In this document: positions 26,861 through 50,342 of the stretch, one piece after another | Layout: each line of letters opens with the position of its first letter | Position numbering within the stretch: position 1 is the stretch's first letter | Source: Streptomyces sp. TG1A-8 | GTDB lineage: Bacteria > Actinomycetota > Actinomycetes > Streptomycetales > Streptomycetaceae | Direction: 5' to 3' | Length of the DNA: 64,000 bases | Assembly (NCBI RefSeq): GCF_030499535.1 | Contig: NZ_JASTLB010000001.1 | Span: 7,035,321-7,099,320 of the forward strand | Made by a program: the position numbers and the translations under genes | The notes under the pieces: generated by a model | What the model saw: the letters and a program-made list of their open reading frames with translations, nothing else | What the model was told of the DNA's origin: nothing | Database searches by the model: none

Positions 26861-27648
26861 TTACTGGCGGGCTGCTGGGAGCCGGCCGTCGACGGTGATG
26901 TCGAAGGCGTTCAGCGCGGTCTTCCAGCGCATGGTCCAGCGGGCCTGGCCCTTGCCGGTGGGGTCGAGCGACATGATGGCCGTGTTAGACGCACTGTAGG
27001 GCGGCTTGCTCGGTGGGGAAGTGTCCGCGGGCCTTGACCGCCCGGCGGATCCGGGCGTTGACCGACTCGATCGCGTTCGTTCGTGCAGACGATGCGGCGG
27101 ATCTCGGTGTCGAACCGCAGGAACGGGGTGAACTCCTCCCACGCGTTCTCCCACAGTTTGACGATCGCCGGATACTTCCGGCCCCAGGCGTCGGCGAACT
27201 CGGCGAACCGCTCCAGGGCCGCTTCCTCGGCCGGCGCGGTGGAGACGGGCTTCAAAAGCTTGGCGATCTTGTCCCGGTCCCGGCGGGCGGCACAGCGGAA
27301 GGAGTTCCGCAGCAGATGCACCACACAGGTCTGCACGATCGTCTTCGGCTAGACGGTCTCCACCGCTTCGGGCCGGCCCTTGAGGCCGTCGCCGACCAGC
27401 ATCAGCACATCGGTCACGCCACGGTCCCTGATCTCGGTGAGGAGGTGCAGCCAGTGCTTGGCGCCCTCGCCGCCGTCGCCGGCCCACCACCCGAGGATCT
27501 CCCGCCGGCCCTCGGTCGTGACGGCCAGGGCCACATAGACGGGCCGGTTGGCGACCGCGCCGTCACGGATCTTGGTTCTGTCGACGATCTTGTGATCCGG
27601 ATGGTCTGCCTCATGGTGCGAGCAGGACGCGTTTGCGAAGGAGATCAA
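26861..27648 (-). pseudogene. IS256-family transposase remnant
   Basis: Pieces of a Mutator-type transposase lie in three frames: VYVALAVTTEGRREILGWW and GVTDVLMLVGDGLKGRPEAV (catalytic Asp region); CVVHLLRNSFRCAARRDRDK; and the tail AIMSLDPTGKGQARWTMRWK. The N-terminus is missing where an IS701 fragment begins on the other strand near 27650. Inactive. Confidence 0.8.
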
Positions 27649-27659
27649 GGCTGGCTCGG

Positions 27660-28114
27660 CTGAACATCGGACGCTTCAGCATCTTCAGCGACCCGACCGA
27701 GATCGCTTACTACGTGTGCCACGGCCCGGTCGGCACGCGGCTGAGGGACCTGGCCCGGGTGGCCGGGGCCCGGTGGCAGGTCGAGGAATGCTTCCAAGCC
27801 GCGAAGAACGAGTGCGGCCTGGACCACTACCAGGTCCGACGTTACGACGCCTGGCACCGGCACATCACCCTGTCCATGGCCGCACTCGCCGCACTGACCG
27901 CCCTCCGTGCCCAGGAACCGTCAAAGGGGGCAGCGATCTTGGGCAAACCCGCCTGATACCCCTGTCCCTCGCGGAGATCCGCCACCTGACCGGGCTGCTC
28001 CTACGCCCACGACACCTCACCCCGACGCACCATCTGCGCTGGTCATGGTGGAGACGGCTCAGTCAGGCTCGCACTCGCCTCAGCCACTACAATCGGCGAG
28101 GCCAAACCCCATAA
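27660..28114 (+). pseudogene. IS701-family transposase C-terminal fragment with -1 frame tail
   Basis: Carries the C-terminal third of an IS701 transposase: DPTEIAYYVCHGPVGTRL, WQVEECFQAAKNECGLDHYQ (catalytic Glu region) and HRHITLSMAALAALTA. The zero frame stops at 27956, but the basic tail (LIPLSLAEIRHL, RWSWWRRLSQARTRLSHYNR) continues in the -1 frame from the heptamer at 27923 to 28114. The same arrangement is seen in the IS701 copy at 47732-49023. The N-terminal two thirds are missing. Confidence 0.75.
27923..27929 (+). promoter_or_regulatory. Slippery heptamer A_AAG_GGG (candidate -1 frameshift site)
   Basis: In zero-frame phase the codons are TCA AAG GGG, giving X_XXY_YYZ = A_AAG_GGG. 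Slippage by -1 joins LRAQEPSK directly to GGSDLGQTRLIPL, the family tail. Confidence 0.55.
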
Positions 28115-28348
28115 CTGTGATTGCAGTACTAGAAGCCGTATCTCAACCGATCTTGGAACGTGTGGGTCGAACGGAGTTCCTGGTCGGGTGATCTTCCGGC
28201 CGTATGCGCATGAAGGCAGGGCCTCCTGGTAGCTCGGGGGTGCGATCCCATTCCGAGCGGTTCCCGGAGGCGCTGTTGTCGTTGTCGTACGCGCCCGAGC
28301 CCGTTGACTTCAACTCGTCCGCCCTGTCGTGCGATTGCCTCGCGCACG

Positions 28349-36408: not shown

Positions 36409-37775
36409 GTGCTGGGTGGGGAGGTGGCCGCGGTCCGGTGTGATCTGGAGGACTTCGCGGCGGAGATGTTCGAGCCGTTCGCGCGGGCGGATCAGCGCCG
36501 GTGGGGCCAGGTGTATCTGCGGGGCCTGCTGCCGGACGGGCGGCGCAGATCGGTGGAACCGATGGCCGCCCGGCTGGGAGAGGACGGCAACCGGCAGGCT
36601 CTGGCCCACTTCATCACCAGCAGCCCGTGGGGTGCGGCGCATGCGCGCGCCCGCCTCGCCTGGCGAATGCAGCAGGTGATCAAACCGACCGCGCTGATCG
36701 TGGACGACACCGGCTTCCTCAAGGACGGGGACGCCTCGGCGTGCGTGGCCAGGCAGTGCACCGGCACCGCGGGCAAGGTCACCAACTGCCAGGACGGGGT
36801 GTCGCTGCGCCTGGCCTCCGACGCGGCGTCGGCGGCCGTGGACTGGCGCCTGTTCCCGCCCGAGAGCTGGGACCCCGCTTCGCCGAAGGCCGATCCGGCC
36901 AAGGTGACCCGCCGCGCCCCGTGCGGCATCCCCGAAGAGGTCGGTCATGTCGAGAAGTGACAGCTGGCCCCGGACATGACCGACGAGACGAAGTCGTGGG
37001 GCATCGAGGTTCCGCTCGTCGTCGCCGACGGCGGATACGGCGTTGCCGCAGCCTTCCACCTCGACCTGGAAGAACGCGCCCCTGAGTACGTGGGGGGCAT
37101 TTCCACCACGACCACTGCCCAGCCGGAGGAAGCCAGGCCCGCATCCCGACCTATGGCGGTCGCGGGCCCCGGCCGCAGCCCGTTTACCCCGAGTCGGCCC
37201 AAGCCGTGAAGAAGCTGGTCATCGAGGCCGGCAAGCGGGCCGCGAAGCCGCTGCCCGGGCGGGAAGAGGCTCCCGCCCGGGCAGCGGCCACAGCGGCGTC
37301 AAGCGGATGTACTCGCGCTTTGTGGCCTGCGCATCCGACCCGCCGGACGCGAGATCCGCAAGAGCATCGACGGCCCGGAACTGCCCGTGCGCCGGCTGCT
37401 GGCCGAATGACCCGCCGCCGAGCCCGAACCCGTGCAGTTCTGGCTGTCCAACCTGCCCGCCGACACCCCGCTGGCCACCCTCGTGCGCACCGCGAAGCTG
37501 CGCTGGCGCATCGAGCACGACTACCGCGAGATGAAGCAGGTCCTGGGCCTGGCCCCCTTCGAGGGCCGCACCTGGAGGGGGTGGCACCACCACGTCACCC
37601 TCGTCTCCGCCGCCCACGCCTTCTGTACTCTCCAGCGCATCACACGGCCCCCAAAAGAGACGGCGCCAGCCTGAGCCTCTACCAGGTCACCCGCGAACTG
37701 CAGCTACTCCTCGCGCTCTGGACCGGCGCCTGCCCCACCTGTCACCGCGACATGCCGGAACCCATACCGACATGA
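36409..37775 (+). pseudogene. IS701-family transposase with nonsense and frameshift mutations
   Basis: The N-terminal part reads normally: LEDFAAEMFEPFARADQRRW, VYLRGLLPDGRRRSVEPMAA, ALIVDDTGFLKDGDASACVA (catalytic Asp). In GHVEK the next codon is TGA (36958-36960) where relatives have Trp, then the same frame continues with SWGIEVPLVVADGGYGVAAA. Frameshifts follow after about 37110. The Glu region (LRWRIEHDYREMKQVLGLAP) is readable from 37432 and stops at 37674, while the family tail LSLYQVTRELQLLLALWTGA plus CPTCHRD runs on in the -1 frame to 37775. Confidence 0.8.
37650..37656 (+). promoter_or_regulatory. Slippery heptamer C_CCA_AAA (candidate -1 frameshift site)
   Basis: Zero-frame codons are CCC CCA AAA, i.e. 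X_XXY_YYZ = C_CCA_AAA. A -1 slip enters the frame encoding LSLYQVTRELQ...CPTCHRD, the expected end of this IS701 subgroup. Confidence 0.5.
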
Positions 37776-37814
37776 CCAAGCGCTACTAGACGGGCAGCTC
37801 ACGTCGGCGGCGCG

Positions 37815-43378: not shown

Positions 43379-46300
43379 CCACACCCGCACCCACATCACC
43401 AGCAAGCTCACCCCGTTCGACCGGGTGCACACGGTGAAGACGACCTACGACGACTACGGCATGGCCGACACCGTCGAGGACGAAGGCGACGACTCGATCG
43501 CGGGCGACGAAAAGTGCACCCGCACCTGGTACGCACGCAACGACGACATGGGCATCAACGCCCTCGTCTCCCGCACCCGCACCGTCGCCGCCGGCTGCGC
43601 GACCACGGACGCGGCACTCGACCTCCCAGCCGACTCCACGCGCCCCGGCGACGTCATCTCCGACACCGCCGCCGTCTACGACAGCACGACGGCCACCGCC
43701 TGGACCGCATCACAAAAACCGGTCAAGGGAGACGCCAACTGGACCGGGCGCGCAAAGGGATACGGCACTGACGACGCCCCGGCATGGCAGAAGACGTCCA
43801 CGACGACGTACGACACCCTCGGGCGTCCGCTGGTCGTCAAGAACACCGATGACCTGGCGGTCTCCACCACCACCTACGTCCCACCGGCCTCGGGCCCTGT
43901 GACGTCGACGGCGGTCGCCGACGCCAAGACGTACAAGACCACCACGACAGTGGACTTCGCGACCGGTGCCACACTGAAGATCACCGACCCCAACAACAAG
44001 GTGAGCGAAAGCGAGTACGACAGCCTCGGCCGCATCACCAAGGTCTGGCTGCCCAACCGCTCCAAAGTCCTGGGCAAGACCCCCAACTACGTTTACGACT
44101 ACCACGTCACCAGCGCCGACATGTCCTGGGTGGCGACCGGAACTCTCAAGAACGACGGCTCGGGCTACAACACCAGCTACGAGTTCTACGACTCCCTGCT
44201 GCGCTCGCGCCAGGTCCAGGCACCCACCCCGCAGGGCGGCCGGATCATCTCTCTGACGCTCTACGACTCACGCGGCCTCGCGGTCAGCCAGCAGACCGAC
44301 ATCTGGGACAGCACCTCCCTGCCCAGCACCCAGGCCGCAGAGGTATCCGGCGGCCAGGCGCCCATCCAGACGGACACGACGTACGACGGCGCCGCCCGCC
44401 CCAAGACGGCGGTGACCAAGGTCCACGGGGTTACCCGCTGGACCACCGACACCACCTACACCGGCGATACCGTCGCCACCACCGCCCCGACCGGCGGCCA
44501 GGCCACCGCCGTCGTCACCAACGCACTGGGCCAGACGACACAGCGCCGCGAGTACGCCGGCCCCACACCGACCGGCACGGACTACACCGCCACCGACTAC
44601 ACCTACACCCCCGCAGGCCAGCCGAAGACCGTCACCGGCCCCGACCAAACCAAGTGGACGTACACGTACGACCTTTTCGGCCGGCAGACCGCGACGACCG
44701 ACCCGGACAAGGGCAAGTCGAGTACCGAGTACAACAACCTCGACCAGGTCGCCAGCACCACACCGAACGACGACGCTTCCAAAAAGCTGCTGTTCGAGTA
44801 CGACGATCTGGGCCGCAGGACGGGCATGTGGCAGAGCGACAAGAGCGACGCCAACAAGCTCGCCGCCTGGGGATTCAACTCCGTGGCCAAGGGCCAGCAG
44901 GATATCGCCACCCGCTACGACGGCGGCGTGAGCGGCAAGGCCTACACCGAGAAGGTCACCGCCTTCGACTCGATGTACAACGCGACCGGCAACCAGCTGC
45001 TCCTGCCCGACACCGAGCCGCTGGTCACCGGCGGCTACGTGCCGAAGACGCTGTCGTTCACCACGGGCTACAACCTGGACGGCACCGTCAGCCAGTACTC
45101 GGCCCCAGCCGCGGGCGGCCTGGCGGCCGAGACGGTCTCCTACACCTCCGGTGCCCTGGGCCAGCAGCTCACCGCCAAGGGCACCACCGGCTACCTGCAG
45201 GGTGCCGCCTTCTCCCCGCAGGGTGACCTGCGCCAGCTCACCTTGGGCATGGACGGCTCGTCCTCGGCGAAGAAGGCCTACCTCAACTGGAACGAGGAGG
45301 GCACCCGCCGCCTGACCCGCTCCTATGTCACCGACGACGTCCACGGCTACATGCCACAGGAACTGAAGTTCACGCAGGACGACGCCGGCAACGTCACCTC
45401 GATCTTCGACGCCACCACCCAAGGCGGCACGGCCAAGGCCGACTACCAGTGCTTCACCTACGACGGCAACCGCCGCATGACCGAAGCCTGGACCCCGAAA
45501 ACCGCCGACTGCGCCACCACCGGCCGCACGACCGCCAACCTCGACGGCGCGGCCCCCTACTGGACGTCCTACACCTACACCGGCGCCGGCCAGCGCAAGA
45601 CGGAAACCCAGCACACCACCACCGGCGACAGCTCCACGACGTACACCTACGACGACACCACCAAGGACAGCAAGCCGCACACGCTGGACAAGACGACGGG
45701 CGCCCGCGCGGCCGCCTACTCCTACGACACCAGCGGCAACACCACCTCCCGCCCCGGCTCCACGGCTCAGCAGACGCTCGCCTGGAACACCGAGGGCGAC
45801 CTGTCCAAGCTCACCGAGGGCACCAAGGAGACAAGCTACCTCTACGACGCCGACGGCGAGCTGCTCATCCGCCGCGCCAAAGCAGACGGCGAGACTATCC
45901 TCTACCTCGGCGCCGGCACAGAACTGCACCTCACGACCAAGGGCACCACCAAGACCGCCTCTGGCATCCGCTACTACACCGCCAACGGTCAGACCATCGC
46001 GGTCCGTACCGCAACGTCCGGAGTCACCGGAACCAAGCTGAGCTTCCTGGCCAGTGACCACCACGGCACCTCCAGCACCGCCCTCGACGCGACGTCGTAC
46101 GCGATCACCAAGCGCTACACCACACCCTTCGGCGCACCCCGAGGCGCCAAACCAGCCTTCTGGCCCGACGACAAGGCATTCCTCGGCAAGCCCGCCGACG
46201 ACGCAACCGGCCTCACCCACGTGGGCGCCCGCGAATACGACCCCACCACCGGCCAATTCGTCAGCGTCGACCCGGTCCTGTCGACCGACCAGCACCAGTC

Positions 46301-47255
46301 CCTCAACGGCTACAGCTACGCCAACAACACACCCGTCACCATGTCCGACCCATCTGGCATGTGCATGGCCGATGCATGCGGCGTCGGCGTGCCCAAGGGC
46401 CGCGTGGTCTTCGACGACGACAAGCCCGGCGAAATCATCACGGACGGCCCGATCGACCCAGGCAACAATAGTGCCGGAAGCTGCCACCACGGAAGCTGCG
46501 GCAAGGTTCACTACAACAGCACGGGTACCGCGCACACCAGCAGCAGCGGCAACACCTCAAGCGGTGGTGCCGGGGGCTCTTTCACGGGCTGGCTGTCAGG
46601 TGCCAAGGACACGTTCGTCAATTACGGCAGTGCGGTCGTCTCCCAGCCCGACATCTGGATAGGCAGCGCCGAAACCGTCGGCAGCATGATGCTGATGGGC
46701 CTCGGCGGAGACGCCACCATCACCGGCGCCGGCATCTGCCTCACCGGAGTCGGCTGCCTCGCCGGCGCCCCTATCGCCGCGGGCGGCGTCGCCATGATCG
46801 GCGCCGGAGCATACGGTGTAGGGGACGGCATCGGGCGGATCAACGATGGTTTAGGGAAAGCGCTCCGTGAAGCGGACGCGGAAAAAGGCACCTCAACCAA
46901 TAATGGTATGGGTTCGCTGGTGAAGGTCAATAAACCAGATCCGTCGGCCGATGCCCTGGCGGAACGTCTGAATGGTGAATCTCGGGTCAAGTTTGCAAAT
47001 GACCCCGAGGGGCGTGAGTTCGATGCCGTCAGTGATACGTATGTCGCACAGGCTAAGCCTGCCAACTTTCAATTGGGTAAGGCCTTTCGGCGACAGGATC
47101 AGGCAACATTCAAGATGGCTGGCACCACCGGTCGCGTTCCCTATTTCCAGTTCGATGGTTCCCCGGGGCCAGGTATAGTGGACGCCATCAAGCGTTATTC
47201 GCAAAGGTATCGCATGCCGGCAGTGATCGATACGCAACCGATCGTTCTGCCTTAA
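43377..47255 (+). CDS. Rhs/YD-repeat polymorphic toxin, 5'-truncated
   Basis: About 1,290 readable residues. Most is YD-repeat shell (recurring YDxxGR / TxYTYDxxG units), ending in the RHS core with FLGKPADDATGLTHVGAREY, DPTTGQFVSVDPV and NGYSYANNTPVTMSDPSG. Then comes a Gly/Ser linker, a hydrophobic GAGICLTGVGCLAGAPIAAG segment and a C-terminal tip of about 110 residues with FANDPEGREFDAVSD, YVAQAKPANFQLGKAFRRQD and VPYFQFDGSPGPG. The tip resembles a restriction-endonuclease-fold toxin, with FDAVSD and QAK as likely PD-(D/E)xK residues. The N-terminal delivery part is missing because IS6 copy D abuts in place of the 5' end. The tip is less GC-rich than the shell, a usual sign of tip exchange. 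Confidence 0.8.
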   Translation, partial: THTRTHITSKLTPFDRVHTVKTTYDDYGMADTVEDEGDDSIAGDEKCTRTWYARNDDMGINALVSRTRTVAAGCATTDAALDLPADSTRPGDVISDTAAVYDSTTATAWTASQKPVKGDANWTGRAKGYGTDDAPAWQKTSTTTYDTLGRPLVVKNTDDLAVSTTTYVPPASGPVTSTAVADAKTYKTTTTVDFATGATLKITDPNNKVSESEYDSLGRITKVWLPNRSKVLGKTPNYVYDYHVTSADMSWVATGTLKNDGSGYNTSYEFYDSLLRSRQVQAPTPQGGRIISLTLYDSRGLAVSQQTDIWDSTSLPSTQAAEVSGGQAPIQTDTTYDGAARPKTAVTKVHGVTRWTTDTTYTGDTVATTAPTGGQATAVVTNALGQTTQRREYAGPTPTGTDYTATDYTYTPAGQPKTVTGPDQTKWTYTYDLFGRQTATTDPDKGKSSTEYNNLDQVASTTPNDDASKKLLFEYDDLGRRTGMWQSDKSDANKLAAWGFNSVAKGQQDIATRYDGGVSGKAYTEKVTAFDSMYNATGNQLLLPDTEPLVTGGYVPKTLSFTTGYNLDGTVSQYSAPAAGGLAAETVSYTSGALGQQLTAKGTTGYLQGAAFSPQGDLRQLTLGMDGSSSAKKAYLNWNEEGTRRLTRSYVTDDVHGYMPQELKFTQDDAGNVTSIFDATTQGGTAKADYQCFTYDGNRRMTEAWTPKTADCATTGRTTANLDGAAPYWTSYTYTGAGQRKTETQHTTTGDSSTTYTYDDTTKDSKPHTLDKTTGARAAAYSYDTSGNTTSRPGSTAQQTLAWNTEGDLSKLTEGTKETSYLYDADGELLIRRAKADGETILYLGAGTELHLTTKGTTKTASGIRYYTANGQTIAVRTATSGVTGTKLSFLASDHHGTSSTALDATSYAITKRYTTPFGAPRGAKPAFWPDDKAFLGKPADDATGLTHVGAREYDPTTGQFVSVDPVLSTDQHQSLNGYSYANNTPVTMSDPSGMCMADACGVGVPKGRVVFDDDKPGEIITDGPIDPGNNSAGSCHHGSCGKVHYNSTGTAHTSSSGNTSSGGAGGSFTGWLSGAKDTFVNYGSAVVSQPDIWIGSAETVGSMMLMGLGGDATITGAGICLTGVGCLAGAPIAAGGVAMIGAGAYGVGDGIGRINDGLGKALREADAEKGTSTNNGMGSLVKVNKPDPSADALAERLNGESRVKFANDPEGREFDAVSDTYVAQAKPANFQLGKAFRRQDQATFKMAGTTGRVPYFQFDGSPGPGIVDAIKRYSQRYRMPAVIDTQPIVLP

Positions 47256-47326: not shown

Positions 47327-47354
47327 CAATAATGGCTAATGATTGGGTGATTCA

Positions 47355-47720
47355 ATGGCTGTGTATGTGTCAATCAGGGGTTGGTTGGAGTGTGATCGAG
47401 AACAGCTGACCCAAATTAAGGGCATTATATCAAAAAATGCTGAAGGCCATTATTCTGGCGGCTGGGCCTTCCCGGGGCAACCGTTCAATTGGACCTCGTA
47501 TGTGTTTTACGGTGGCGACATTCAAGAGGGTGATACGTCCTGGCTGCATGGTCAATTGGAAGAGATTTCCAGGATTTCTTCAAGTGACAGTTCAATGGGC
47601 GTGCAGGGGTTGTTCATTGCAACGTCCGAGGTTGATGGTGCAGTCGAGTGGCAAATCCGTGACGGTGGCATTCACGTTCTACCCATCCCTGGTGAACTTC
47701 AGTATCTAGGTCCTGAATAA
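47355..47720 (+). CDS. Probable immunity protein for the Rhs toxin tip
   Basis: A 121-aa acidic, Trp/Gly-rich soluble protein (SIRGWLECDREQL, GGWAFPGQPFNWTSYVFYGG, EVDGAVEWQIRDG). I do not recognise a named family with certainty. It is called immunity from its position directly after a toxin tip, small size, negative charge and the same lower GC content as the tip. Start ATG 47355 is preceded by a weak GGGTGA; a TTG at 47343 is also in frame. It should bind and block the nuclease tip in the cytoplasm. Confidence 0.65.
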   Translation: MAVYVSIRGWLECDREQLTQIKGIISKNAEGHYSGGWAFPGQPFNWTSYVFYGGDIQEGDTSWLHGQLEEISRISSSDSSMGVQGLFIATSEVDGAVEWQIRDGGIHVLPIPGELQYLGPE

Positions 47721-47731
47721 TCCAATCAAAA

Positions 47732-49023
47732 TTAGTACTGCAACGACACTTCGTGATTTCCTCTGCGTTTGTGGTGGCTGATGCGGGCTCGTGCTTGGCT
47801 TCTTCTTCGCCATAGTGACCATGCGAGTACGTGTCGGATGTGGTGGCGGAGGGGAGAGGAGATGCGGGTGAAGAGCCGCCGGGCTTCGTTCGTGGTCAGG
47901 GGTATGAGGGGTTGATCACTGCCGGTGTCCGGGTCCCCTTTTTTGCCTCTGCCCGCAGGATGGCGAGGAAGGCGAGGGCGGCCATGGACAAGGTTATGTG
48001 CCGGTACCAGGCGGTGTAGCCGCGGACTTGATAGTGATCGAGTCCGGTTTCGTTCTTCGCGGTCTGGAAGCATTCCTCGACCATCCACCGGGACCCTGCG
48101 ATCCGCGCGAGTTCCTCCAACAGGGTCCCGGCCGGGCAGAAGCAGATGTGGTAGGCGAGGTCCGTGGGATCGGTGAGGCTGCGCCGTGCCAGTACCCAGT
48201 GGTCCCAGCCTTCCCGCCGCCAGGGCCGGATCGGGGCCGCCGCCCAGTCGTACTCGCGCGGCCCGTGAGCACCGTCACCGCAGCTCAGACGCGCCCAAGC
48301 GTCGCCGGGGAGTTCGCTGACCAGCTGGTGTGCGCGGGCCTGGCCGAAGAATTCCATGGTCATGACCATCTGGGATTTCGGGACGGCCAGAACATGGGGG
48401 ATGTCATGTTCTTCCAGCCACATCCGGATCCGGCTCCTCTGGCCGTAGACCTCGTCGGCGGTCACCCACCCGAAAGGGATCCCCGACTCCACAGCACGCT
48501 GGAGCATCCGCAGGCCCAGGTCCGGCTGGGTGGCGAACTCGACATCGTCACCGATGCCTGCGGCCCGGCACCGCTCGCGGTCCGGTATCCAGCCCTTCGG
48601 GAGATACAGCTCGCGGTCGATCAGGGCCCGCCCCCGGTCGGATCCGTAAGCCAGGAAAACTCCGATCTGGGAATTCTCGATCCGGCCGGCCGTCCCCGAG
48701 TACTGCCGGGCCACCCCCGCCGACTTGATGCCCTTCTTCAAAAAGCCCGTCTCATCGAGGATCAAAATTCCCCGGTCGGGACCTGCGATGTGCTCCACGA
48801 CCGCGTCGCGGACGTCGTCCCGCAGAGCATCGGCATCCCACAGGTAGTAGTTCAGCAGCCGCTGCATCCCCTGAGGACCGTCATCGCCGGCGGCTTCGGC
48901 CAGGGTCCAGCCGTTCTTCCGTTCCGCCTCGCTGAGCAGTCCCCGCAGATAGGACACCATGCACCGTCTCGGCTCCACCCGCCCGAAGCGTCCCGCGAAC
49001 CGCGCCACGAAGTCACCGAACAC
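47732..49023 (-). CDS. IS701-family transposase, near intact, with -1 frame C-terminal tail
   Basis: Zero frame (49023 to 47896) encodes 375 aa with the DDE residues visible: ILILDETGFLKKG, VTADEVYGQRSR and WMVEECFQTAKNETGLDHYQ. It ends RAEAKKGTRTPAVINPSYP. From the heptamer at 47938-47944 the -1 frame continues GDPDTGSDQPLIPLT...WSLWRRRSQARARISHHKRRG to 47732, the basic tail that also ends the fragment at 27660-28114. TAGTACTGCAA (47733-47743) matches, inverted, the end of that fragment (28121-28131) and is probably the terminal repeat. The other end abuts an IS630 piece. Confidence 0.8.
47938..47944 (-). promoter_or_regulatory. Slippery heptamer A_AAA_AAG (candidate -1 frameshift site)
   Basis: On the coding strand the zero-frame codons are GCA AAA AAG, giving the classic bacterial heptamer A_AAA_AAG in the correct phase. 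A -1 slip links AEAKK to GDPDTGSDQPLIPL. Confidence 0.65.
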
Positions 49024-49047
49024 ACCTGACCAACCGTCAGCTATTGA

Positions 49048-49402
49048 TCAGAAACTTATGGGGTTCTCGTCCAGGACGTAGCGGACGTGCGGGCCGCCGA
49101 AGTAGTCGCGGACGATGTGCGGCTGACGCTGGCGTCGGCGGAAGAAGTGGCGGGTCTCGGCGGTGAGTTCGGCCTGATCACGGGCTCGGTGCTGCCGGGG
49201 CAGGCTGTGCTTGAGGTCGGCGTTGACCAGTTCGTCGGGGTTCAGCTCGGGTGAGTACGGCGGCGGGAAGTGCAGTTCGACGTCGTCGGGGTGGGCGGCG
49301 AGCCAGTCGCGGACTTTCTTGGAGCGGTGGGCGCGGTGCCCGTCGGCCACGAGGTGGACCTTGTGGTCGAAGTGGCCGGCGAGCCGGTCCAGGAAGCGGC
49401 AC
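49048..49402 (-). pseudogene. IS630-family transposase C-terminal fragment
   Basis: Reads HLVADGHRAHRSKKVRDWLA, LHFPPPYSPELNPDELVNAD and a basic tail, the last two acidic residues of the IS630 (DDE_3) catalytic set. The N-terminal part is cut off at 49403 by the IS5 element. Confidence 0.8.
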
Positions 49403-50342
49403 GGCCTGTTGCGAAAGTGCTGGTCACAGCCATTCGTTGATGGCCGCGACCAGCACGGTCGCTTCGTAGCGGACGGCGAGTTTGTCGTACCTGGTGGCGA
49501 CGGCCCGGTGGCGCTTGAGGCGGTTGATCCCGCACTCGACCGCATGCCGCTGCTTGTAGTCGTCCCTGTCGAACTTCGGCGGCCGCCCGCCGCGCGAGCC
49601 GCGCTTCTGCCGGTTACGGACGCGGTCCGCCGGGATGGGGATCGTGGCCTTGATCCCGCGTCTGCGCAGGTAGGAGCGGTTGACGCGGGAGTCGTACGCC
49701 TTGTCGGCTCGTACCCGGTCCGGCCGCTTGCGTGGCCTGCCGGGTCCGATCCGGGGCACGCGGATCGCCTCGAGGACGGGCCCGAACTGCGGCGAGTCGC
49801 CCCGCTGCCCGGCCGTGACCACGACGGACAAGGGCTTTTGGCCCTGCTCGACCGCGAGGTGGATTTTGCTGGTCAGGCCGCCCCGGGAGCGTCCGAGGCC
49901 GTGGTCGGCCGGCTCGGCGAAGACACCGCCGGGCGGCTCCTTCTGGAGGTCCCCCTTTTCGCCGCCCCTGCGGCGTGCTGATGGGCCCGGCAGACGGTGG
50001 AGTCGACGTTCACGTCCCAGGTGATCAGGCCCTTCGCATCGGCCTCGGCCTGGAGCCGGGTGAGGATGCCAGCCCAGGTGCCGTCCCGCTGCCAGCGCCG
50101 GAACAGGTCATAGACCCGGTCCCATGGGCCATAGCGCTCGGGCACGTCACGCCACGGGGCGCCGGTCCGGGTCCGCCACCGTATGCCGTCTATCAGCTGC
50201 CGCCGCGTCCACACCTGCGGCCGGCCCGGCTTGATGCCCCGCGGCAGCAGTGGCTCAAGCCGGGCCCACTGGCCGTTCGTCAGATCCCCACGTCCCACAG
50301 GACATGATCATGAACGAACAAGATCCACTTTCGCAACAGACC
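49403..50342 (-). mobile_element. IS5-family (IS427-like) element, about 940 bp
   Basis: Terminal repeats GGCCTGTTGCGAAAGTG (left, about 49403-49419) and CACTTTCGCAACAGACC (50326-50342) match inverted at 16 of 17 positions. It carries one two-frame transposase. No matching target duplication was seen, and it separates the IS630 fragment from a non-coding stretch. Confidence 0.8.
49424..50298 (-). CDS. IS5-family transposase in two overlapping frames
   Basis: The first frame (50298 to 49873, 141 aa) has [40 protein letters not shown] and the first catalytic Asp in [20 protein letters not shown]. The second frame picks up at about 49960 with [11 protein letters not shown], through [25 protein letters not shown] and [20 protein letters not shown] to 49424. 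The switch is -1 near an AAAAGGGGG run. IS427-group IS5 elements commonly have this two-frame layout, so this copy may be functional. Confidence 0.75.

Follow-up and report, generated by a model that had tools for sequence, protein, structure and literature searches.

In the insertion sequences of the IS3 and IS1 families (IS911, IS3 and IS1), a -1 shift at an X_XXY_YYZ or Z_ZZN site is presumed to limit the amount of transposase, according to the relevant parts of PMC5009743 and PMC4066793. The families listed as frameshifting in the corresponding part of that 2016 review are IS1, IS3, IS5 and IS630, and IS701 is not among them (PMC5009743). The IS701 family was split from the IS4 family, which PMC2266710 describes as having no frameshift in the transposase gene. 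We found no report of IS701 frameshifting in the literature searched, including parts of PMC7371123 and PMC7335449; prior notice in ISfinder or in the 2011 Sharma study is possible.

We analysed a stretch of 64,000 nucleotides of the Streptomyces sp. TG1A-8 genome (hereafter, the window) that harbours three IS701-type elements. A sequence-only reading of the window had proposed programmed -1 frameshifting in this group of elements, and a family-level survey, the conservation of the sites and the selection acting on the tail all support it. Thus, programmed -1 ribosomal frameshifting very probably operates in two actinobacterial IS701 subfamilies, shortly before the transposase gene ends, and would append a C-terminal domain.

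Three IS701 copies in the window

The features of the three copies, called A, B and C, are as follows.

27633-28132: copy A, total extent
27633..27956, + strand: copy A, zero-frame C-terminal fragment of an IS701 transposase (ORF; NF033540 positions 284-363 of 363, 104.9 bits)
27923..27929, + strand: copy A, slip heptamer A_AAG_GGG, in phase; identical motif at the homologous spot of many relatives
27954-27956, + strand: copy A, zero-frame stop
27923..28114, + strand: copy A, tail in the -1 frame, basic, A-type
28119..28132, + strand: copy A, right IS end GATTGCAGTA plus CTAG target-like tetranucleotide, from comparison with L003-type ends
36409-37789: copy B, total extent
36409..37674, + strand: copy B, decayed IS701 transposase, open in 36409-36960 and 37432-37674 with frame breaks between
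37650..37656, + strand: copy B, slip heptamer C_CCA_AAA, in phase
37672-37674, + strand: copy B, zero-frame stop
37650..37775, + strand: copy B, tail in the -1 frame, CPTC-type
47732-49044: copy C, total extent
47896..49023, - strand: copy C, 375-aa zero-frame IS701 transposase (NF033540, 448.8 bits)
47938..47944, - strand: copy C, slip heptamer A_AAA_AAG, overlapped by an in-phase A_AAG_GGG at 47935-47941
47898-47896, - strand: copy C, zero-frame stop
47732..47944, - strand: copy C, tail in the -1 frame, with a TAA stop within CTAA at the right end of the element

The heptamers AAAGGGG (27923-27929, +), CCCAAAA (37650-37656, +) and AAAAAAG (47944-47938, -) had been reported correctly in sequence, position and phase, and each of them does form the junction of an IS701 transposase in the zero frame with a -1-frame tail. 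As reckoned from the ORFs, the first base of the heptamer is position 3 of a zero-frame codon in all three copies, and the tails, counted from the slip site, comprise 41, 63 and 70 residues in order of increasing length. The three copies are DDE_5 matches, and the curated IS701 model NF033540 (cut-off 150 bits) recognizes copy C and the N-terminal part of copy B (176.1 bits); the copy A fragment and the C-terminal part of copy B (109.2 bits) fall below that cut-off.

It had been argued that random mutations would not hit a proper heptamer at the same place three times. Strict in-phase X_XXY_YYZ heptamers occupy 72 of 46,250 codon positions in the bodies of related transposases, i.e. ~0.0185 per 12-codon window, and three out of three is therefore very unlikely by chance. 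However, the three cases are not all independent. Copy C also harbours an in-phase AAAGGGG (47941-47935), homologous in place to the site of copy A, which suggests a common ancestral slip site for A and C, with B as the separate case.

All three copies are damaged: A is reduced to its C-terminal part, B has several frame breaks and C lacks its left end. Because of this damage, decay and programming are not decidable from the window copies alone, and their families decide.

As to the surroundings of copy C, homology to full-length copies does not extend past 49044, and the element therefore lacks a left inverted repeat. This truncated side is abutted by pieces of other transposase genes (DDE_3, DUF4096) at 49048-50298 on the - strand, with the DDE_3 match at 49048-49545 adjoining the cut. 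On its other side, the window codes for a 1276-aa RHS protein with a C-terminal Tox-REase-3 domain (43425-47255, +). A 125-aa ORF devoid of a Pfam match lies 3' of the RHS gene (47343-47720, +) and may be the immunity gene of the RHS/Tox-REase-3 protein.

Tail frame among relatives

With the body of copy C as query, the search covered 150 genomes at the family level, 293 at the order level and 394 at the class level, in overlapping sets; with the N-terminal part of copy B, it covered 197 genomes at the order level. The survey consists of the loci returned and of regions picked from lists, and is biased to near-complete copies. In a first pass over distinct elements, including those of the TG1A-8 genome itself, the tail was in the -1 frame in 93, in frame 0 in 63 and in +1 in 5, with no tail in 4. 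A second pass covering both subfamilies yielded 225 loci with body and tail and 8 without; partial bodies, scores under 250 and identical rows were dropped to give 188 rows, and removal of near-copies left 185. Of these 185 non-redundant elements, 118 have a -1 tail, 60 a frame-0 tail and 7 a +1 tail. The binomial p value for -1 versus +1 is 4e-27 under an assumption of independent rows, which these rows are not. Membership of the IS701 family was also found for the relatives L003, L059, L079 and L203, which score 398-453 bits with NF033540.

We placed the elements on a FastTree phylogeny, leaving out the +1 rows. On this quick tree, in which 58 of 182 inner branches are poorly supported, the distribution of frames 0 and -1 needs 5 changes and that of slip types needs 29 (counting all states, including frame 0 and 'none'). 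Thus, tail frame follows the tree, while the slip type keeps changing. The check proposed beforehand, i.e. a conserved -1 tail with a varying heptamer across many relatives, therefore came out positive. Frame-0 tails are concentrated in a separate sister clade, in which 57 of 60 rows are in frame 0. Relatives with the tail in frame and no heptamer, which had been named as evidence against programming, thus do exist, but almost wholly in that separate clade rather than scattered among close relatives.

The named relatives of the group belong to Streptomyces and other Actinomycetes. From the best 80 of 503 hits in a scan of genome contigs, we obtained 79 loci from named organisms, comprising 62 distinct elements with body and tail, 9 duplicates and 8 without body or tail. 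The tail of these 62 elements (best 80 of 503) is in the -1 frame in 55, in frame 0 in 5 and in +1 in 2, and the -1 sites are A_AAG_GGG (31), A_AAA_GGG (9), A_AGG_GGG (7), C_CCA_AAA (2) or none (6). In a sampled check, at least 18 of the 79 loci share exact 80-mers with earlier loci, and hence this set is not a fully independent test. Hosts of -1 elements include Streptomyces, Kitasatospora, Catenulispora, Streptacidiphilus, Sphaerimonospora, Spongiactinospora and Pseudonocardia, and plasmid pGA1 of Rhodococcus sp. GA1 has GAA AAG GGG followed by a -1 tail.

We checked six plasmid elements for their annotation. A -1 tail is present in five of them. Of these, L331, L333 and L336 are annotated with a CDS that covers the zero frame only, and for L332 and L334 the PLSDB table, from which pseudogenes are omitted, lists no CDS over the element. 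The sixth, L335, has a CDS and no recognized tail. The entries with a -1 tail thus lack the probable C terminus, since the CDS ends at the zero-frame stop in three of five and none is listed in the other two.

Slip sites and their conservation

The 118 rows with a -1 tail have C_CCA_AAA (33), A_AAG_GGG (25), A_AAA_GGG (12), A_AGG_GGG (5), A_AAA_AAG (3) or G_GGA_AAG (1) at the junction. Thus, 79 of 118 harbour an in-phase slippery site of these six types. The expectation of a canonical heptamer in every member did not hold: by label, strict X_XXY_YYZ sites are found in 62 of the 118 rows, and a further 17 have only A_AAA_GGG or A_AGG_GGG, which are not strict heptamers. The remaining 39 are devoid of a recognized slippery site; 32 of them have GCAGAAACG and 7 have other sequences, and 30 of the 39 belong to one clade, described below. 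Within the 25 codons that precede the tail, 63 of 118 -1 rows have a strict heptamer of one kind or another, versus 2 of 60 frame-0 rows.

In the A/C subfamily, the site is A_AAG_GGG and variants thereof. Of the 35 distinct -1 copies of the B subfamily, 33 have C_CCA_AAA, one (L224) has G_GGA_AAG and one (L230) has an upstream frame break; three further copies (L216, L220 and L250) fall in other frames. C_CCA_AAA is found beside both types of tails, as L182, L183 and L185 combine it with an A-type tail. In 34 site-aligned copies of the B subfamily, CCCAAAAG is 97-100% conserved, compared with 47-85% for the eight bases before it and 38-64% for the six after it. This profile is nearly free of motif selection, as it includes 34 of the 35 copies; in the A type, conservation around the site is by construction since the rows were chosen by their motif.

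No consistent folding signal was found that would identify a downstream RNA structure as a stimulator in either set, and the hairpin suggested beforehand is thus not a general feature by folding z-score. In the A set, the mean z-score 5-10 nt after the site is about +0.5 (n=45), and in the B set, values of -0.43 to -0.95 at 0-40 nt (n=32) are no lower than the -1.13 of the upstream control window.

The frames might alternatively be joined by transcriptional slippage at homopolymer runs rather than by ribosomal slippage, a mechanism that the GeneTack authors, in the part of PMC3711429 concerned, favour for several transposase families. Copy C has six consecutive A residues, A_AAG_GGG sites contain short runs of A and G, and two rare relatives, L289 and L305, are fused in frame through one extra base in the slip-site run. 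The extra base of L305 is possibly a sequencing error, since it is missing from L304, a near relative from the same strain. In contrast, the runs at C_CCA_AAA and G_GGA_AAG do not exceed about five bases in the junctions listed, the C_CCA_AAA motif keeps its codon phase in the B type and the direction is nearly always -1, a single conserved direction being a mark of ribosomal slippage in the same part of PMC3711429. We therefore regard transcriptional slippage as improbable, although it is the best of the alternatives to ribosomal frameshifting.

Related copies in the TG1A-8 genome

A profile search of the genome of Streptomyces sp. TG1A-8 returned 41 DDE_5 matches. They include 19 near-identical copies (L003 to L021) of another element with a 426-aa zero frame and an A_AAG_GGG junction in 19 of 19; the copies viewed have the tail in the -1 frame. 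Matching TTAG or CTAA tetranucleotides (YTAR) flank both sides in 14 of the 17 L003-type copies inspected, corresponding to a 4-bp target duplication; the flanks of L007 and L020 are unmatched, and the left side of L010 is not readable. The 19 near-identical copies with their matching target duplications suggest that an element with the frameshift layout has spread recently. A larger duplication accounts for some of them, as L003 and L015 have common flanks. Other copies in the genome have the tail in frame 0 (L024 to L027 and L036). Two other C-type copies are full length but have a TGA inside the -1 tail.

In the L003-type and C-type elements (47732-47735 in the window for the latter), the -1 frame stays open until the element ends, and the stop codon that closes it falls within the 4-bp target duplication (TA|Y TAR). 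The host target therefore completes the transposase. Many other -1 elements stop earlier than the end of the element.

Selection on the tail

We determined dN/dS ratios for the part of the tail that follows the zero-frame stop. Read in the -1 frame, they amount to 0.197 for the AAARGGG group (15 of 16 matched pairs used), 0.283 for the 404 group described below (13 pairs) and 0.32 for the B subfamily (14 matched pairs), and in the other two frames, they range from 1.26 to 2.69. Differences between pairs fall mainly on the third codon position of the -1 frame (20/37/88, 41/28/88 and 47/41/94 for positions 1/2/3). For the in-frame tails of the sister clade, dN/dS is 0.374 (17 pairs). The -1 tail is thus under purifying selection.

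These data bear on the idea that out-of-frame tails result from ordinary indel decay of transposase genes. Decay stays true for single copies: it fits the state of the three window copies and the 7 rows of 185 with a +1 tail, of which L047, L068 and L160, together with L148, a frame-0 row within a -1 clade, have indels near or in the tail and look like indel copies. At the level of the family, it is opposed by the 118 to 7 bias to -1, the clade-wide conservation, the selection on the -1 tail and the 19 near-identical copies with target duplications, which leaves it slightly less probable still than transcriptional slippage.

Production of the tail as a separate small protein, by internal initiation or translational coupling, would be in keeping with the zero-frame TGA found just after the slip site in most B-type copies. 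It is very improbable, as an ATG, GTG or TTG in the -1 frame is present near the tail in only 13 of 118 rows and none of these is preceded by a Shine-Dalgarno-like site; an independent start of the tail is ruled out for these three start codons only. A vestigial tail, with only the tail-less zero-frame product in use, could account for the stop in the two full-length C-type copies, but it is hardly credible, as only the -1 frame has dN/dS values of 0.20-0.32, which are comparable to, or below, the 0.37 obtained for the in-frame tails.

A clade devoid of strict heptamers

In a clade of 31 rows in the body tree, most of which have a 404-aa zero frame, the selected tail is out of frame, in -1 in 30 rows and in +1 in L068, an indel copy. 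Examples are L059 and L121, and genomes G322, G327 and G390 hold several copies each. A strict heptamer is absent from every one of the 31 rows, and in the stretch searched, an in-phase Z_ZZN tetramer is absent from 27 of the 30 -1 rows, the exceptions (L122, L123 and L130) having C runs elsewhere. All 31 rows have the 16 bases GCAGAAACGGATCCTC, directly preceded by AAA in 30, and identity at the zero-frame third positions just upstream of this block drops to ~50% (29 rows). As the 404 group used for third-position identity had first been defined by the string AAAGCAGAAACG, the recount was done on the body-tree clade. In four rows, a -1 stop lies only 19 bases before the motif, and the shift must therefore fall in or after that 19-base stretch.

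GCAGAAACG is also found in a different clade, within the linker. We considered recombination of a clade-1 tail into the 404 clade on the basis of this common sequence, and rejected it because the tail tree, built on 54 columns only, groups the 404 tails with clade 2.

The 404 block is possibly an undescribed recoding signal, e.g. one in which the upstream block would set a tandem slippage of proline tRNAs at T_CCT_CCN, with U:G re-pairing at the first position; L059 has T_CCT_CTC. In a broader form of this reading, IS701 frameshifting would attach a C-terminal domain to a complete DDE transposase in two subfamilies with different tails. We put this reading forward tentatively, as somewhat less probable than its opposite.

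Predicted structure and proposed mechanism

We predicted the structure of the frame-0 relative L079 (448 aa) from a 43-row alignment, with a pLDDT of 83.2 and a pTM of 0.85. The model comprises the DDE core, a helix (352-376), a coil (377-397, with a pLDDT of 55 at 381-390) and two tail helices (398-409 and 416-444), and its closest solved fold is that of the Tn5 transposase (4dm0, E 5e-10; 1muh, 1e-9). The slip sites of L032, L003, L203, L224 and L183 map to residues 376-384 of L079. D110, D211 and E332, taken as the DDE triad, precede the slip sites and are identical in these five relatives. The slip site would thus be located directly after the DDE domain, where helix 352-376 ends and the predicted coil linker begins. 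Because the site is at the start of the linker between core and tail, both products could fold.

The gene would accordingly give rise to a short and a long transposase. Normal decoding would end at the zero-frame stop, and the resulting short protein would already include the DDE catalytic domain in full. At the conserved site, i.e. A_AAG_GGG and its variants or C_CCA_AAA/G_GGA_AAG depending on the subfamily, a fraction of the ribosomes would slip back by one base. The slip would add either an A-type tail of two predicted helices, the second of which is long and basic, or a B-type tail with a CPTC-containing segment. The long form is probably the active transposase, since elements of the sister clade encode the A-type tail in frame with the body. 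Its amount would be limited by the slip, and the excess of tail-less protein may be inert or inhibitory.

Comparison with known systems

The elements described here have the features of the IS701 family, namely the match to the NF033540 profile and the 4-bp target duplication; the tail lies beyond the end of the 363-position model. Genes of this kind are frequent among the genomes of the Streptomyces group that were searched. If our interpretation is correct, IS701 joins the frameshifting transposon families with a reversed layout, in which the full catalytic domain comes first and an optional C-terminal domain second. Frameshifting without a known slippery motif, if true, would bear on the recognition of recoding sites in high-GC bacteria.

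Two forms of one transposase are also made by Tn5, whose short form comes from an internal start and has no N terminus; in contrast, the short form proposed here would lack the C terminus. Frameshifting in dnaX takes place at A_AAA_AAG and gives two products from one gene, the shifted one being the shorter, whereas the shifted product of the IS701 elements would be the longer one. They resemble the IS3 and IS1 families in being mobile elements with a predicted -1 shift at an X_XXY_YYZ- or Z_ZZN-type site. In those families, the shift generally joins an upstream DNA-binding ORF to a catalytic ORF, while in the IS701 elements, the zero-frame product has the whole DDE domain and the shift would add a C-terminal tail.
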